DNA of 64,000 bases from Trichostrongylus colubriformis (taxonomy: Eukaryota; Nematoda; Chromadorea; Rhabditida; Trichostrongylidae). The translations under genes and the position numbers were made by a program. Below are positions 36,780 through 44,907 of the stretch, piece by piece. The notes below the pieces were generated by a model. It worked only from the letters and a program-made list of their open reading frames with translations, was not told the origin of the DNA and searched no databases. Numbering within the stretch: the first letter of the stretch is position 1; each line of letters begins with the position of its first letter. The stretch spans positions 53,276,873 through 53,340,872 of the forward strand of contig OZ022257.1 in the NCBI GenBank assembly GCA_963978905.1, written 5' to 3'.

Positions 36780-39039
36780 TAATTGTAACAACTCTGGATC
36801 CTTTTAGCATTCTGATCGAGACCCGAAACGTGCCTGTTTTTGAGATTGACTACACTTACGAAAGGTAACTAATTGTAAGCTCATATCAAAGATTGACCTG
36901 GCTATAAAAGTACACTATGAGACGCACTGAAATGGAAGAATGTAATTTGTGAAGATTTCTTCAGGAGCGTTATCTCACAGAAGTCACAGAAGCTTGGGCT
37001 AGGGAAAAAATATTTCACCTCGGAGCAGTGCTGTGATGCCTATACATATGACTATCTAGCTGCTCTTGTGAGATATCGCTAGTGTAATGGAAAAGCACGA
37101 TAAACGAAACGCTAAGTGCAGGTTTAAATCCCAGTAGAGCCCGAAGATTCGACCACAATTAGTATCCTTACGGCAATACTCGCGCTGCGAAGCAGCTCAT
37201 CCCGAAAAGCAGAAAACTACAACATGAAAAAACTTTTAGGAGCATGTTTGACTACAGAGAACATCCAGCAATGGGTTCCGAAGTTTCAGAAATGCAACAA
37301 CTAACAAATTCAAATCCGCAGAAACAGGATATGACGAAACGGGAGCGCACTACCGGCTTACACAGAATAAAACTGGACATAAAATTCGGAGCCGCTATTT
37401 TTCGTAGGCTAACCGAGATTAATTCCGAATAACCTGTTGAACACTCATAAAAACTAGTTGCGTAAATAGCGCTCCGAACACCCACCCTTTTTCATTACAG
37501 CTGAAAACAACGGCAGCATAACAAAACAATAAAACTTCAAATAGGCTTGTACGGAATAAAAAAAGGTGCACGTAAAATCAGTAATTTATATGTGCGCGAA
37601 TGACCACTTCTTTGCAGTTTTGAGTAGCTTATGCAGCCAGACGGCAACTGATCACCATTTTTCACGCACGATTAGAGGCTTAAGGAGCAAAACACGCGAG
37701 AGACCATGAAAGCCCAGCAGAGGGATCCATTATGAGATCACTGGGTCCCACTAATAAATAAAAAGGAAAGAATAAAAGTTATTGAAATGTCAGTGATAGT
37801 TCCAGCTGGACGACGTCACTCTTTTGCATGTGTTGGCCGCCCGGCCAGGCATAGGTGGACAAATCCCTTGTTCTTTCAATAATTCGTTTCGCACGGTGTT
37901 ATATTCGTGGAAAGCTTGAGGAGGACAGGTGGTCGTGTGTCCGTGCTTCCCGATATGCTCAAATGAGAAGTTCACTAGTGCATTGTCTGACCCAGCTCAA
38001 ATACCGAGCCCGGATACCCTTCACTGGGTTTGAACGAGTTAAGGTTTAATCAAACAAAGAACATCGCTATCACGTGTAACTACGATCCCATACTTCTGCA
38101 ACTACTCGGTTGCCCCATGCGCGAAGATCGGGACCCGATTGCGTTTAATGTCAACTCAGTGAAGTATGATGTTTTCAAAAGAAGAACTGGAAAATGCATG
38201 TAAATTTATAGTTTAGAAGCCACTTCGTTCGTAGTATTACCACTTCATATCTTAAGGCACTTTATTTGTTCATTTGTGTATGTGTTTTACCTGTTCTCAA
38301 TACATGCAATATGGCATGTTCATCAATAAATAAACAAATAAGGGAAGAAGAATGGAAGAAACATTTTGAAGAGGAGCAGTTACATCGAGTCGAGTACTCA
38401 CGACAGCTTTGATTGCGTTTGAATTGAGGACGCAGTCTTCAAATTGAATTGAACGTCCAAAGATGGTGAATACCCATTCTAGATGGTGGGAACACTCAGT
38501 TGGTGTTCTCTCCGTGAAGAGTTTCTGATTTGCCGTTTTTTGCGATTTTCTATTGGCACTTGTCCAAGGAATTGTTCATCACAGAAAAAAGAAAATCAAA
38601 ACATCACAGAAGCAATGCGACAAAAAGTAATGGCGACTTTCGTATGCACGAGTGATGCCATAAAGAGAGTCCAGCGCGCGTTGAATAAACGGAATTCTCA
38701 GGAAATAATTGCATTATACGTACATGGATGGTCACAGTCTAGCCTTGCAAGGGTGGAGCACACATAGAGGGAGAGGAGGATGCTCACAGATTTCTGCTCG
38801 TTGACAAGCGTCTAGAGTGATTAGTCTTTTGACAAAGTTTTTGGCAGGTGGCAGATTGCTCTCACAAATTTCTGAAGAAAGCGTGCTAGTCAAGGCTGCC
38901 ACTGTCACTTTATTTTTGTTTTGATCTTTCTGCTGTATACATGGAAACTTGCGTGAAATAGGTAGCAAAGGAGCTCTTCAGTTTTTTTTTCCTGCTATGA
39001 ATGGTCTCAAAAAGAGCTGAGAGTTAAAACAAGAAGGCG
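36780..39039. other. no supportable gene
   Basis: After the S1 SINE tail, 2.2 kb of AT-rich DNA. No frame above about 95 codons and no repeat pairs seen. Confidence 0.5.
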
Positions 39040-39460
39040 CTATTCCACTATCACTACCGCAGATACCGCTAGTTGGGTCAAAAAAATTTTGTTCAGGGGG
39101 GTTATTTGGGGTGCTGATCACGAATATGACATCCGTTTTGGCGCTTGCGCCGATGCAGTTGCACCATGTAGGTGCACAACTCCTTTTCACTAAAATCGCT
39201 GAGGCTTTGCCCAGCGGGTTATTTGGGAAAACGCATGTCATATTCGTGATCAGCATCCCAAATAACCTCCCTGGGCAAAGTTTCAGCGATTTTGGTGAAA
39301 CGAGTTGTTGCACCAACGTGGTGCAATTGCACCAAGTTGGCGCAAACGCCAAGAACTATATTCGTAATCAGCACCCTGAATAACTCCTAAAGGCGAAGTT
39401 TCAGCAAAAACTATTCTTTCGAACCAACTGGCGGTATCTGAGGCATTGATAGTGGAGTAG
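39040..39460. mobile_element. 421-bp foldback with nested internal palindromes
   Basis: The outer ends CTATTCCACTATCACTACCG and (inverted) CTACTCCACTATCAATGCCT extend about 60 bp as inverted repeats. Inside, CTTTGCCCAGCGGGTTATTT is mirrored by AAATAACCTCCCTGGGCAAA around 39250. A block ending CACGAATATGACAT occurs three times in alternating orientation (about 39110, 39240, 39360). No coding potential. Confidence 0.7.
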
Positions 39461-39740
39461 TGCCAAGACGAGCATATGGAAATGGTTGTTCTGGGAGCAT
39501 TATCCGTTGAAATCAGTTCAAGATTCATATAGAGAAACTTCGAAAAACCGCCGTGTCAAATGTGGGAGAGCATAGAATCGCATACGATCACGCAAAAATA
39601 CCTCCTAGAGTCTGAACGAGTTTTCTACCCACTTGTGGAATACAGGAACTGGGAAATTTGACCAAAATTCACCTCTCCGTAGGAGCGGACAGCATGAAGG
39701 ACCCACAGCGGAACACCCAAAATTGACGGATTTCTATCGC

Positions 39741-40139
39741 TGTCAGAAGCGATTTTTTTCAATGTTTGACGCAAATTCCTAAACATGTTCCTCATTCGAC
39801 TTCATTTCAGAGAAGGAGAGATGGCGTGTTTTTTTGTGGCAAGCTATCCGACCGTCACTGTGCAGCTGGTTGACTTCTTGCTTTGGCGGACAGAGGAACC
39901 CACAGCTGTGAAGTGCGTATATATGCAGAAGCACTGACTCATCTACTTGCACCTTCAGTTACTCCTTACTTCAGAGTAGTTTGCGCTTTCACGATAATTT
40001 GCGCCTTCATTTAGTATAATTTGCGCCCATTATGACAACATTTGTGTTGGGCTTTTTCGCTAATCCTTTTGATGGTTTATATGCTTGTGCGACAAATTCT
40101 TATTGCTTTGCTTGCTTAGTTTAATTACCCAAGTTTGAG
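39741..40139 (+). repeat. left LTR-like direct repeat
   Basis: Starts TGTCAGAAGCGATTTTTTTC and ends near TTAATTACCCAAGTTTGAG. It aligns end to end with 41586-41995 in the same orientation. TATATAT at 39918-39924 sits where a U3 promoter is expected. Confidence 0.8.
39918..39924 (+). promoter_or_regulatory. TATA-like box in left LTR
   Basis: GCGTATATATGCAG. The equivalent site is conserved in the right repeat at 41763-41770, which supports a real element promoter. The start site is not determined. Confidence 0.45.
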
Positions 40140-40180
40140 CTCACTCTCATTCACATAGCAGCAGTCCATCATCAAGAAGT

Positions 40181-40784
40181 ATGAAGAACGAGGGACCATA
40201 TGTGGCAAGCATGACAGAACTCACACGAAAACAATTTGATCGTTTTCGTACCGTCTTCACCGAGACGGTGGAGATTTACGAAAATGATTTTCCGACCATA
40301 TCGCCCCGACTTATCGATATTATCTCATGTGTGAGAGAGAAGCTTAGACAAGCTGGCATGCCACCGAAATTGGTAAAACTCAACGGATGTGCTGCTTCGC
40401 ATGTGGCTTCTGCTGACGATTTCCCATACGCTGATCGTGATCTCATTCTTCCGATGAAGGTGGAGAAATCAGTAGTTTCGATAAGGCTCGTGAAGCTGTA
40501 TTTGTCACTATCATGGATATGATGCCATCGGCAAATAAAAGAAAAATCAATGCAGACACTTTGAAGGATGTTTATATTGGCAAAATTGTTAAGGTGTCCG
40601 GTGATGACGATCGTTGGTCGTTGTTCTCGCTTCACAACGACGTTGGACGGTGTATCGCATTGAGGTTTGTCGATAAAATGCGCCGACAATTTGAATTCTC
40701 CGTCGATTGTTCCAAATCACCCTCGATTCACTGCTGGACGATTTGAATACTCCTGAACCAAAGGTCTACATTGAAAGCATGTGA
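40181..40784 (+). pseudogene. TENT5/FAM46 nucleotidyltransferase fragment (captured, frameshifted)
   Basis: Three adjacent frames together match the N-terminal catalytic part of TENT5 (FAM46) non-canonical poly(A) polymerases, which adenylate mRNAs in animals. Recognisable blocks are FPTISPRLIDIIS, KLVKLNGCAASHV (family LNGSAASHV), PYADRDLI (the catalytic D-x-D, family DLD), DRWSLFSLHND, FVDKMRRQFEFSVD and, in the last frame, FQITLDSLLD. Frame changes lie near 40465 and 40708, and the last frame stops at 40782-40784. The G-S motif Ser is Cys and D-L-D is D-R-D here, so activity is unlikely even apart from the breaks. No intron interrupts ~560 bp, which suggests an RNA-mediated capture. It starts 42 bp after the left LTR and lies in the same orientation as the gag-like ORF. 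The C-terminal half of the family is absent. Confidence 0.75.
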
Positions 40785-40807
40785 ACGATGACGATGACCC
40801 CCTTCTT

Positions 40808-41557
40808 ATGGATTGCGGAGCTATCGAAAGTGCGCTGTCCGACCAGTTGCAACTTCTTGATGGACTTCGTTCCAATCTACAAGAGATTCGCACGGCCCTT
40901 GAAGAGGAAGAGAAAAAGGAGAGAGTCTCCTTCAAAGCCGAAGTCAGACAAGCCATCCAAAGCCTTCAAAATATGGTGGAAGACGTGCTGGACACACTTG
41001 AACGTCACCCAGTTGCTCACTCGACAAGCAGTACCTCCACGCAAAACGAAGATGATCCGTTTCACTCTCGCGACGAGAAAAAACGCCGAGTGGATGAGGA
41101 TCTGCGACATCTGCGGCGGGAACATGTGCGACTCACAGCTATCATCAACGACCTCATGAGGCAACCAACCGGCCTACCCCACGACTTCCAGCACGGAATT
41201 ATTAACCGAGAGGAAGAAAGATTTGTGCGCTGTGCGCTTTGCAATGCTATAGGCAACCACTATTCCGACTCATTCACGGTGGGAAGGACAGTAGAGGATA
41301 GACGACGATCCCTGCATGACACAGGAAGGTGCGAACGCTGTCTGGAATATTGTATGAGGGTCAAAAGCTGTCGCAAGTACTACACGCGATGTTACCATTG
41401 TCGACAGCTCGATCATCACTCCGCGACCTGCGAACTCCCTGATCAAAGTGAAGAAATCATCGGTCGACTGTCAAAAGCACGCAGTGATCAGGCTCGCTGT
41501 GTGCTGCACTTGATAAAGCTACAACAGCAGCTGAATGTTCTTTCCAAGGGAGACTGA
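40808..41557 (+). CDS. gag-like protein with CCHC zinc knuckle
   Basis: The frame is open from 40775 and would read GTG at 40781, but the first ATG is at 40808, giving 249 residues. Counting from 40781, residues ~15-75 and ~98-127 are rich in Glu, Lys, Arg and Leu with heptad character (likely coiled coil). Residues 204-217 form a canonical C-x2-C-x4-H-x4-C knuckle, preceded by further Cys pairs (C151-x2-C154 with H160; C184-x2-C187). This resembles gag-like proteins I associate with nematode Pao/BEL-type retrotransposons. It would bind element RNA in particles. It has no protease or RT continuation and stops 28 bp before the right repeat. It is intact, in contrast to the adjacent TENT5 fragment. 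Confidence 0.65.
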   Translation: MDCGAIESALSDQLQLLDGLRSNLQEIRTALEEEEKKERVSFKAEVRQAIQSLQNMVEDVLDTLERHPVAHSTSSTSTQNEDDPFHSRDEKKRRVDEDLRHLRREHVRLTAIINDLMRQPTGLPHDFQHGIINREEERFVRCALCNAIGNHYSDSFTVGRTVEDRRRSLHDTGRCERCLEYCMRVKSCRKYYTRCYHCRQLDHHSATCELPDQSEEIIGRLSKARSDQARCVLHLIKLQQQLNVLSKGD

Positions 41558-41585
41558 AGCACGATTGCGCGGGTGGGAATATCGC

Positions 41586-41995
41586 TGTTAGAAGCGATTT
41601 TTTTCAATCTTCGATGCAAATTTCTAAACATGTTTCTTATTCGACTTTATTACAGAGAAAGAGATACGGCGTGGTTTTTTGTGGCAAGCTATCTCACCGT
41701 CACTGTGCAGCTCTCTGACTTCTTGCTTTGGCGGACAGAAGAACCCACAGCTGTGAAGTGCGTATATATACAGAAGCACAGTGACCATCTACTTGCGCCT
41801 TCAGTTACTCCTTACTTCAGAGTAGTTTACGCCTTCACGATAATTTGTGCCTTCATTTGGTATAATTTGCGCCCTTTATGACAATATTTGTGTTTAAGCT
41901 TTTTCGCTAATCCTTTTAATGGTTTATATGCTTGTGCGGCAATTTTTGTTGCTTTGCATGCTCTGTTTGATTACCCAAATTTAAGGTAAACGATT
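41586..41995 (+). repeat. right LTR-like direct repeat
   Basis: Starts TGTTAGAAGCGATTTTTTTC and ends near GATTACCCAAATTTAAG. The TATA-like box is at 41763-41770. The mismatches to the left repeat imply an old insertion or gene conversion history. Confidence 0.8.
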
Positions 41996-44907
41996 CGCGC
42001 TCTTTCGTGGTGTACTGTACGATTATCAATCCGCGTGGCTCGGTGCAGACAAGCTTATGAACTCGAAGGCATATTAATTCCCATCAGCGGATACTCGTCT
42101 CCACGGTCGAAAACGAAATGCGATTTAGCATTGTTACCTAGAGAAGACACTATACGTACGGGAAACGGATTGGAAACGTGTATCACAAAGTGAAAAACAT
42201 TTATCTGTAGGTTTTTTAAATAAGTTTTGTGCAAGTTTCATGATTCAAAAGTGTATAGCGAAGAAACCCTTTGTTTACAGTCTAACCTTTCCGTGCCATT
42301 TTCCTCTTGCCATTTTCCCACTGTAAAAAATGCCTTTGGTGCCTTCGGAGATGCACAACAAAGATAGCATGGGCATAAAAGCGCAGCTCCGCAACAAGTG
42401 CTCCTCAGTGTAGCCGTTCGCTCGTCCGGATTAGGTGCGCTTTCTTCTCTCTGGAGCTTTCTTGCCTTCTAAATTGTAATTTCTTGTTTCAGTACGGTGC
42501 TGTGGTGCTGTGGTGCAATCTGTGCTTATCTTTGGTGCTTTGGTGCTCTCTGTGCGTGCAGTTCGTGCAGGTCGTGCTCACTCTGGTGCTTGCTTTGGTG
42601 CGATCTGGTGCAGGTAGATTTTGGTGCCTATTTGATTTGTATTGTATTACTCTTTGCAACCTTTTTGCCTATATATGGTAAATTCGTATCGTTTGTATTT
42701 GTAGCATTTCAGGTCTAGTTATTTTGATGTGTTATTCATCGGTATTTTTTGTTTGTTTAATTACCCAAGTTTGAGGTCTGGAAATAAAGTTACCGCGTGG
42801 CAAAGTGTTCTATCACAACGTGACTGAAAGCATTTTCAATCGGTATAAAATTCGTCAGATGAGATTGGAGGCAGTAGATGGCTAGCCGATGAAGGTGAAA
42901 ACAAAATCAGGCTAAACCCCTCGAATCTCTCGAATTGCGAATCTGCTCCCTATCTTCAACGACTGATATGGCGACGGGCGCCTTCATACTTTGCGGTAGT
43001 GCTGACGTGCCTGCCCGCAACAGAGTATGGCTGTGTTCACAGCAGTGATTTAGATTGTGGGCACGGACGGAAACGCAAAGACGACGAAGCCACGTCTTAC
43101 CGCCGGCAAATCGGAGTATGAAGGCGGCCGAAGGCGCTTGGTGCGAGACCAGGCGAAGAGAGGCGAATAGATCGGAAAAGGAACATAGGAATGACAGAGA
43201 CGCGGATTGTGTGGTCTACTAACCACGACCGATTAGCTTTTTTGTACCGAATTAAGCGGCACTAGCGCCCTAGTTGCTAACTGGTGCTGCAAGGGTTCAC
43301 CGCGCATAGACACAAAAGGATCTATATGTTCGATGAAGAATCAGTTTACAACGATAATCGCGAGGTTTTGCTCGGAAAGACGCGAAGCATTACCACAATG
43401 AAAGCGCTGGAAATAGAAGAAACAAAAAGACAATTGGCAAATTGAGCCTGAAAATGTCGACGAGATTAAAGGAGATATGTCAGTCATCGAGGTGCATGGC
43501 ACTTTTGCATGCCTCAAAACAATAACTAAGGACGCTTTCAAAAGCACAGGGATCTTTAGAGCATGAATGCAGCATTGACCTCGTGATTAACTCATTTAAA
43601 AGCTATAATTTTTTCATACAGAATGTGCTGTAGAAGTTGCACGACACAAGCATAATATGAATTCATCTATACAAATGCGCAGGACCCAGGTCAAAAGGAC
43701 CTGAAGTCACCTATGCCTACCAAGTGTTGCTATCACTACTAATGGAAGTCCTCGTGTTCAACATCAACCGACTGGAAAGAAACAGTGGAGTAGAATCATT
43801 GATTAGGGGTGCTTTAAACTTCAACATCAATAGCAACCCGTAAAAGCCATAGATACATAAAATACCATGATAAGCTTTCTGAAAGATATTCCTCTTGAGA
43901 TGGGTGACCCGAAGGGCACCACCTTGGATTTTTCGACAGAAAACTTGCGGTTTGTTCCAGGTTTTTTAGCTAGAACCACACATTCATTTAAACATTCCAA
44001 GACTCTGAGCTTTGCAAAAAGAAGCTTCTGGAACTCAGCTGGAAAGTCCGTCGCCCATAAATCCAGTCTCAATGGAATAATATTTTTGTGAAGCAAAAGA
44101 CACATATGGCTTTGCTGCGGCAGCACTCTATAGGATTCTACCGAGGATCAAGGTATGAAAAGCATCGTTAAAGTTGGTCATTATCTCCCAAAGGAAAGTG
44201 CTTTCCATTACCGCGATTCTCTTCACAGGAAAGAAATTCCGGGAAGTTAATCTCGGTCTTCTACCATAGAGCGATCCGCATTCACTCTCGACGATTGATG
44301 AGCGCGTATACGTGCTTAGATTTCGGAAAGGTGAAAAACTGTCAGAAGCTGAGCAGCATCGAGGAAGATGCCAAAGGAAGGACATATGCTACGGCGTAGT
44401 AGACAAGGTTACTGCATGTCAGAGCCTGAGAAAAGGTGTTTTCATACGCAAAGTTTCGTAAAGTTCTTTAGGGAAGTGGGCTTTAGTTGTGACGTTATTC
44501 CGAGAGAGGAAGTCCGACTAGGGATTTTCTCTGTAAAAAGAATGTTCAAGACATACTCACTGCACTGAAAATACTCACGGGATGTCTTGTGATAAACATG
44601 AGGGCGCTTTCGTCCACCTTCCACTCCAGGCAATAATTTCAATTTTTTCCTAGGTACAGGTGTACTTTGAGAACCAGGTTTTGTTTTGAGGCGCTGCTTC
44701 TGAATTTGGAAAACTGCCCGAGGAATCGGCTTGCCCAGGAGTCTCTCTCAGCTCCAAAAGGAATTGCTTAAATATTCAGCATATGGGCTACTACGAATCA
44801 CTTTCAGCTTACACACCACATTTGGACTGGTGGACTGGAGAATAGATTCTTTTCTTCTGTTTTTCAAAATTTAAATTTTTGTTATAATACTTCGTTTCAG
44901 CATTCTA
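41996..44907. other. no clear gene; possible further LTR remnant and GGTGC-rich tract
   Basis: At 42752-42776 the string TTTAATTACCCAAGTTTGAG repeats the 3' end of the left LTR and is followed by GGTCTGGAAATAAAG. Upstream, GGGCATAAAAGCGCAG (about 42371) resembles a TATA region. This may be a related LTR end. The 43.8-44.6 kb stretch has moderate open frames on both strands, none assignable. No gene is supported. Confidence 0.4.
42493..42632 (+). repeat. degenerate GGTGC/GTGCT repeat tract, G/T-rich strand
   Basis: The motif GGTGC or GTGCT/GTGCA recurs about ten times in 140 bp, with strong strand asymmetry (G and T on the plus strand). Low-complexity; translations in all plus frames are Cys/Leu/Trp-rich nonsense. 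Confidence 0.7.

Follow-up and report, generated by a model that had tools for sequence, protein, structure and literature searches.

A Trichostrongylus colubriformis LTR retrotransposon relic that encloses the intronless 5' half of TENT5 and has a 5' seam at the spliced leader SL1

Host-gene capture by LTR elements through short microsimilarities is already known, and template switching at such sites is an accepted route for LTR-mediated retrocopies that is known in animals (available text of PMC5408686). In LTR-mediated retroposition (Tan et al. 2016, cited in PMC5408686) and in maize Bs1, an intronless part of a host mRNA lies between LTRs and is joined at microsimilarities, as at the locus described here. 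The present locus differs from those cases, as the available text of PMC5408686 presents them, in that its 5' seam is a 21-nt leader common to LTR and mRNA, placed at a splice acceptor, and in that the 5' LTR no longer has its primer site or the U5 beyond SL1. The presence of SL1 beside Pao elements is already known from Brugia malayi, where integral SL1 sequences accompany Pao LTR elements at close range and in some cases flank an element as a same-strand pair; its authors take expressed Pao RNA to have acquired spliced leaders and then been integrated (accessible sections of PMC7181701). The association of SL1 with LTR elements is common to both species, but in the T. colubriformis element SL1 lies inside both LTRs, is followed by U5 in the 3' LTR, and forms the seam to a host gene, unlike the arrangement in those sections. 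Cer1 of C. elegans is likewise an LTR element whose RNA can receive SL1; it is Gypsy/Ty3-related, and the accessible part of the report describes trans-splicing of the RNA and mentions neither a host gene nor an SL1 within the LTR (PMC3315495). Transcripts of ta-TRIM solo LTRs in Echinococcus are joined to genes at trans-splice acceptors; as far as the available text of PMC4558846 goes, this is a flatworm transcript fusion with no retrocopy, and the donor need not resemble the leader. Dinoflagellate retrogenes with spliced-leader relics are retrocopies that keep a 5' spliced leader, and the sections of PMC12014239 available mention no LTRs. A literature search on SL1 inside LTRs, spliced-leader capture, and TENT5 with retrotransposons, outside which most subscription papers lay, returned no printed report of an apparent SL1 seam of U3 to a host mRNA such as that seen here.

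The window is the whole 64,000-nucleotide stretch of T. colubriformis DNA that was analysed, and coordinates refer to it unless another sequence is named. From 39735 to about 42076 it holds an LTR retrotransposon relic with the intronless 5' half of TENT5 between the LTRs, composed as follows.

39730..39734, no strand: possible target-site duplication ATTTC; the partner, ATTCC at 42077-42081, agrees at only 4 of 5 bases
39735..40139, plus strand: 5' LTR, comprising U3 and the core promoter through the last SL1 base, without the remaining U5 and the primer site
39917..39925, plus strand: TATA-like box of the 5' LTR, GTATATAT, within the most conserved part of the family LTR
40118..40139, plus strand: SL1 spliced leader in the 5' LTR, 21 of 22 bases, the mismatch being base 1
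40140..40782, plus strand: TENT5 5' half, intronless, from 5' UTR at the parent's splice acceptor through the ATG at 40181 into a coding exon; frame broken by two single-base deletions
40775..40782, plus strand: seam of TENT5 and the gag-like ORF, microhomology AAGCATGT, 7 of 8 bases matching the gag side of L033
40775..41557, plus strand: gag-like CCHC ORF, 260 codons open, gag homology starting at about 40783
41571..41579, plus strand: polypurine tract GGGTGGGAA, directly preceding TATCGC
41580..42076, plus strand: 3' LTR, full length, U5 present after SL1, ending at about 42076
41762..41770, plus strand: TATA-like box of the 3' LTR, GTATATAT
41964..41985, plus strand: SL1 in the 3' LTR, 18 of 22 bases (4 mismatches), followed by GTAAAC

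The original prediction, made from the letters alone, had placed two direct repeats of about 400 bp with shared TATA-like boxes around a TENT5-like fragment and a gag-like ORF, all in one orientation. The repeats, the boxes and the common orientation are real, and the order is LTR (U3 to SL1), TENT5 mRNA 5' half, gag-like ORF, polypurine tract and full LTR. Positions 39735-40139 and 41580-41985 were 89.2% identical over 408 alignment columns, and 43 of 404 compared bases differed. The second repeat is the longer one and extends to about 42076, so that the element end first proposed, 41995, had to be moved; SL1, present in both repeats, had gone unmentioned. The first repeat stops at the last base of SL1; it lacks the sequence found beyond SL1 in the 3' LTR and in the other LTRs of the family. 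TENT5 stands directly after SL1, with no primer binding site after the 5' LTR. Because the 5' LTR is without the primer site and part of U5, RNA of this copy would not be primable in the usual way. Three of 21 SL1 bases differ between the two window LTRs, which fits decay and is not informative. No Rfam match was obtained at the gathering score in the whole window. An imperfect, MITE-like inverted repeat (39036-39464; 71% over 463 columns) lies immediately before the element, with arms at 39084-39139 and 39228-39283 that are 89% alike.

The window's own genome, of 331 Mb, was searched with the first repeat, which was found in at least 46 places, more than chance would give; a local segmental duplication was ruled out as the source of the repeats, as the repeat is dispersed. 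The two window LTRs thus belong to a dispersed family and stand in direct orientation, as in an LTR retrotransposon copy. Among 20 larger regions, of which the window is one, five other loci (L031-L035) have LTR, gag-like ORF and LTR in one direction, and these, together with the polypurine tract, the LTR ends and the family primer sites, bear out the LTR-type element that had been proposed. LTR pairs of the five loci are 74 to 88% alike, the second LTR of L034 appearing to be interrupted by an insert. The family LTR mostly begins with TATCGC after the polypurine tract, GGGTGGGAA being at the same place in L034 as in the window, and measures about 450 to 500 bases. In family LTRs, SL1 is followed by GTAAAC-like bases (in some by AT or GA), by roughly 90 further bases and, where the LTR is a 5' one, by the primer site TGGTGCATCGAC, which is exact in L031, L034 and L037 and has one change in L033. 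SL1 was present, at up to five mismatches, in 23 of the 26 family LTR matches that reach its position in the 20 regions; L038, L040 and the second LTR of L035 are without it. It forms a conservation peak in the family LTR alignment (mean pairwise identity 0.84 versus 0.73 elsewhere), but conservation in the core promoter equals or exceeds this, reaching 0.88 over 22 columns. A Gypsy-like pol piece with RNase H and integrase domains lies beside or inside the family copy at L037 (7843-9000, minus strand). At L042 (C5:50.68-50.81 Mb) the same core promoter and the SL1 variant TTACGCAAG occur in an array of inverted pairs, the ORFs of which recur in mirror image.

The ORF predicted to be gag-like is open over its length, but no Pfam family reached the cut-off in it or in any tested family piece. 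Because Pfam showed no gag domain in these pieces, the superfamily placement draws on weaker links. The CCHC ORF gave at least 149 genome matches (147 of 351 candidates scored). Two of these lie within sampled SL1 pairs, close to the 3' LTR (C1:11482220 and C1:10105235). A 31% match at C8:9328274 and a PF05380 match 2 kb upstream at C8:9326099 both report a 1866-aa frame, and the SL1 pair C1:17642318/17652229 encloses a Pao Peptidase_A17 (PF05380) match. Among the 20 Peptidase_A17 matches listed (C1 below 32.02 Mb; 150 of 618 candidates scored), one lay within 10 kb of an exact SL1, and the link of SL1 to the best Pao matches is weak. Judged by these similarities the element is probably BEL/Pao-like; the family copies covered by the analysis are non-autonomous. 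The gag-like ORF has stayed open although the LTRs differ by 10.6% and TENT5 has two frame breaks; its close relatives carry stops.

Identification of the inserted piece as TENT5 was upheld. PF07984 matched both window frames (E = 1.6e-14 and 9.7e-29; profile positions 1-86 and 87-167 of 321), and the solved TENT5A, TENT5B and TENT5C structures match these frames by sequence. A profile search of the genome (6 of 6 candidates scored) found PF07984 in the window and in a multi-exon parent gene on C7 only. Comparison with this parent, the check that had been proposed, agreed with an intronless fragment: four parent introns are exactly missing from the window copy, three of them within L051 and the fourth between L052 and L051. 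The copy has no poly(A) at its 3' end, where it stops in a coding exon and continues into gag, unlike a LINE-type processed pseudogene, for which a poly(A) tail is expected. The copy instead has the features of an LTR-mediated retrocopy, being free of introns, placed between LTRs, and bounded by seams at microhomology, SL1 on the 5' side and AAGCATGT on the 3' side.

At the 5' seam, 40139 is the last base of SL1, and the TENT5 part opens with the base that comes first after TTTCAATTCAG in the parent. Exon 1 of the parent contains the ATG, starts with CTCACT and follows TTATTTCAATTCAG (acceptor TTTCAATTCAG, TTCAG/CTCACT), and the N-terminus encoded by the parent is nearly identical to that of Ostertagia TENT5 (P0007). 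Both the TENT5 and the gag sequences are strongylid-like. In the window, CTCA or CTCACT stands directly after SL1 and is followed by a 7-base gap relative to the parent; an alternative alignment resolved the gap with the two bases in another position and set the SL1 stretch against the intron. The acceptor and the window seam together suggest that TENT5 mRNA receives SL1. At the inner seam TENT5 homology stops within a coding exon at GAAAGCATGT; in other copies the gag-side sequence at this place is GGAGCATTT (L031) or GGAAGCATTT (L033). TENT5's own frame reaches TGA right there, so no fusion protein is read across the seam, and the TENT5 half has no evident function now. Insertion of an element beside a processed pseudogene, or duplication of the repeats around one, had been offered as alternatives; both leave unexplained that the 5' LTR ends at SL1 and that TENT5 starts at the acceptor. 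A pseudogene merely adjoining an LTR element was rejected as the simple case owing to the two precise seams.

The TENT5 copy differs from its parent at 37 of 643 bases (5.75%). The LTRs diverge by 10.6%, half of which is 5.3%, and because the two values are close, capture and insertion look simultaneous. Changes in the TENT5 coding part comprised 27 nonsynonymous and 8 synonymous ones; with 0.24 of possible changes being synonymous, there is therefore no sign of selection. The simplest reading is that TENT5 would have been acquired in, or shortly before, the round that produced this insertion and decayed neutrally after it.

These values bear on the second half of what had been predicted. Uptake of a host transcript by the element stands, as a processed TENT5 lies between the LTRs; a TENT5-carrying lineage analogous to retroviral transduction does not. 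That such elements form a long-standing lineage common to other strongylids is very improbable, given that divergence from the host gene is no greater than the age of the insertion, that PF07984 is confined to the window and the C7 parent, and that the 5' LTR is without the primer site and part of U5. Other copies with the order LTR, TENT5 and gag, which the original prediction had suggested looking for, were not found in this genome: the window itself excepted, TENT5 was present in none of 30 family loci or 20 regions. What speaks for a lineage is P0002, a partial gene model from a T. colubriformis contig no longer than 4239 bases; in this model a TENT5 stretch is in frame with the same gag region at a seam different from that of the window. 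P0002 shares one change with the window copy (MPPKL; MPPKS in P0005, the fragment of the species' own TENT5 gene). A single shared change is weak, however, and P0002 differs from P0005 at 4 of 42 residues. No TENT5-gag fusion beyond P0002 was present among the 2, 7 and 6 proteins returned from the protein collection, the six coming from the TENT5 N-terminus query. P0002 may stem from a separate capture or from an old one, or may have been joined in annotation, and such captures may have happened elsewhere too; its TENT5-gag join is not predicted by a single capture and counts against a one-off event. The window copy is most likely a one-off dead end and not a member of a TENT5-carrying lineage.

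With somewhat better than even confidence, we favour a one-time chimeric retrocopy that arose while a nematode LTR retrotransposon of probable BEL/Pao type was being reverse transcribed, by a switch to an SL1-TENT5 mRNA and an SL1-mediated transfer. Minus-strand DNA would have been copied from the element RNA up into the gag-like region and would have switched at AAGCATGT to a TENT5 mRNA that carried trans-spliced SL1 and was packaged together with the element RNA. On this mRNA synthesis would have run to the SL1 at the 5' end. At the last strand transfer this SL1 end would have paired with, and been extended on, the SL1 inside the element LTR, replacing the usual PBS or R pairing. U3 would thereby have been joined straight to SL1, and a product with the order U3-SL1-TENT5-gag-PPT-LTR would have been integrated. 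The integrated copy, with a 5' LTR devoid of the primer site and the rest of U5, would have been unable to replicate normally and would have decayed afterwards. A strand transfer at SL1 would account at once for the absence of the PBS and the remaining U5 from the 5' side alone, and the homology for it is at hand, since 23 of 26 family LTR matches have SL1. We infer this transfer step from the order of the parts and the two seams, and a route by splicing would yield the same product.

Splicing from the SL1/GT of the LTR is the main rival, and the sequence decides neither way. An LTR transcript would have used its SL1/GT as donor for the TENT5 acceptor, either in trans or in cis from an LTR that then stood upstream of the gene; reverse transcriptase would have copied the resulting chimeric RNA and changed template into the gag-like region. 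SL1 in the family LTR is mostly followed by GT, as it was at 34 of 43 sites sampled on C1 (SL RNA genes included), and a precedent exists in Echinococcus, where cis-splicing links a solo LTR to an acceptor ancestrally used for trans-splicing (available text of PMC4558846). The donor is not always kept, however, with AT at 8 and TG at 1 of the 43 sites. The C7 parent has no family LTR among the at least 46 places listed, which leans against the splicing rival, and no SL1 occurs in the 573 bases before its acceptor. An ordinary SL1 trans-spliced mRNA, moreover, already yields the seam, and we regard splicing first as unlikely.

A join at the DNA level, in which an LTR element recombined through SL1 with a pre-existing SL1-tagged processed TENT5 pseudogene and later lost sequence up to gag, is improbable. 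SL1 would supply the shared homology, and SL1-tagged retrocopies may exist in the genome: at L080 (C1:14891065-14891365, minus strand), SL1 is followed immediately by ATGCCAATAAC with no LTR features, perhaps as the retrocopy of an SL1-tagged mRNA. Such a history requires two independent events at precise seams, however, and TENT5 ends in a coding exon, without poly(A), at the gag microhomology, with an age that agrees with that of the LTR pair. Returning to the favoured strand transfer, the presence of SL1 in both LTRs and host mRNAs suggests a simple route for elements to acquire host genes.

The 21-nt SL1 string, at up to one mismatch, gave 2018 matches in the genome, and the reversed control gave 0. 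The places listed were the first 100 of the 2018, all on C1. Some matches are SL RNA genes, an array of which is on C1; L063 and L090 scored 39.0 and 35.2 bits against the SL1 RNA family, below the cut-off of 75. Other matches, among the places listed, form same-strand pairs 4.5 to 9.9 kb apart. Seven sampled pairs were 97.3 to 100% alike around SL1, and the pair groups were mostly unalignable with each other. The site sample comprised the 43 exact SL1 sites, in 40 loci. After SL1, GCGTGGC was found at 22 of these sites, CACTGAAC at 9, and TGGTGCATCG within 139 bases at 6. In L068 a whole tRNA-Gly(GCC) in antisense follows the LTR, which makes tRNA-Gly the likely primer, and two short U5 motifs can be read as pieces of antisense tRNA-Gly.

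A possible but doubtful reading is that SL1 serves these LTR elements as their R region, the 5' end of the genomic RNA coming from SL1 trans-splicing and the SL1 of the LTR being rewritten from the host SL RNA in each cycle. SL1 is exact in LTR groups that are otherwise mostly unalignable, with base 1 not kept, and AATAAA or ATTAAA lies within 45 bases upstream at 9 of the 43 sampled sites, which were, however, picked as exact SL1 matches. In the window family, SL1 differed by 0.134 between elements versus 0.152 within LTR pairs, whereas the stretch before it differed by 0.334 versus 0.209 and U5 by 0.247 versus 0.149. Against an R region, the core promoter is near-equal too (0.142 between elements, 0.121 within pairs), so selection would explain the equality of SL1 as well. 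If SL1 were R, host mRNAs bearing SL1 would end like element strong-stop DNA and could jump to the LTR, and much of the trans-spliced transcriptome would be open to capture, always with the seam U3-SL1/mRNA. A leader common to many host mRNAs and LTRs would be a general, sequence-defined entry point for capture and would predict chimera sites in nematodes, and the association of SL1 with Pao in Brugia would gain a testable role.

Further SL1 copies were noted in other settings. A third SL1 lies just downstream of the element, at 42754-42775 (1 mismatch, base 1), followed by GTCTGG and a ACCGCGTGGC motif, and is probably in the LTR of another SL1-bearing group, an LTR that may span about 42400-42815. 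A short repeat with CAGGAGTTTGGTGTG or similar upstream, SL1 and GTAC-like bases, not obviously an LTR, was seen at L066, L070, L072, L082 and L084, with three copies within 1 kb at L072; the CAGGAGTTTGGTGTG-like upstream stretch is also present in L085, L089 and L091.
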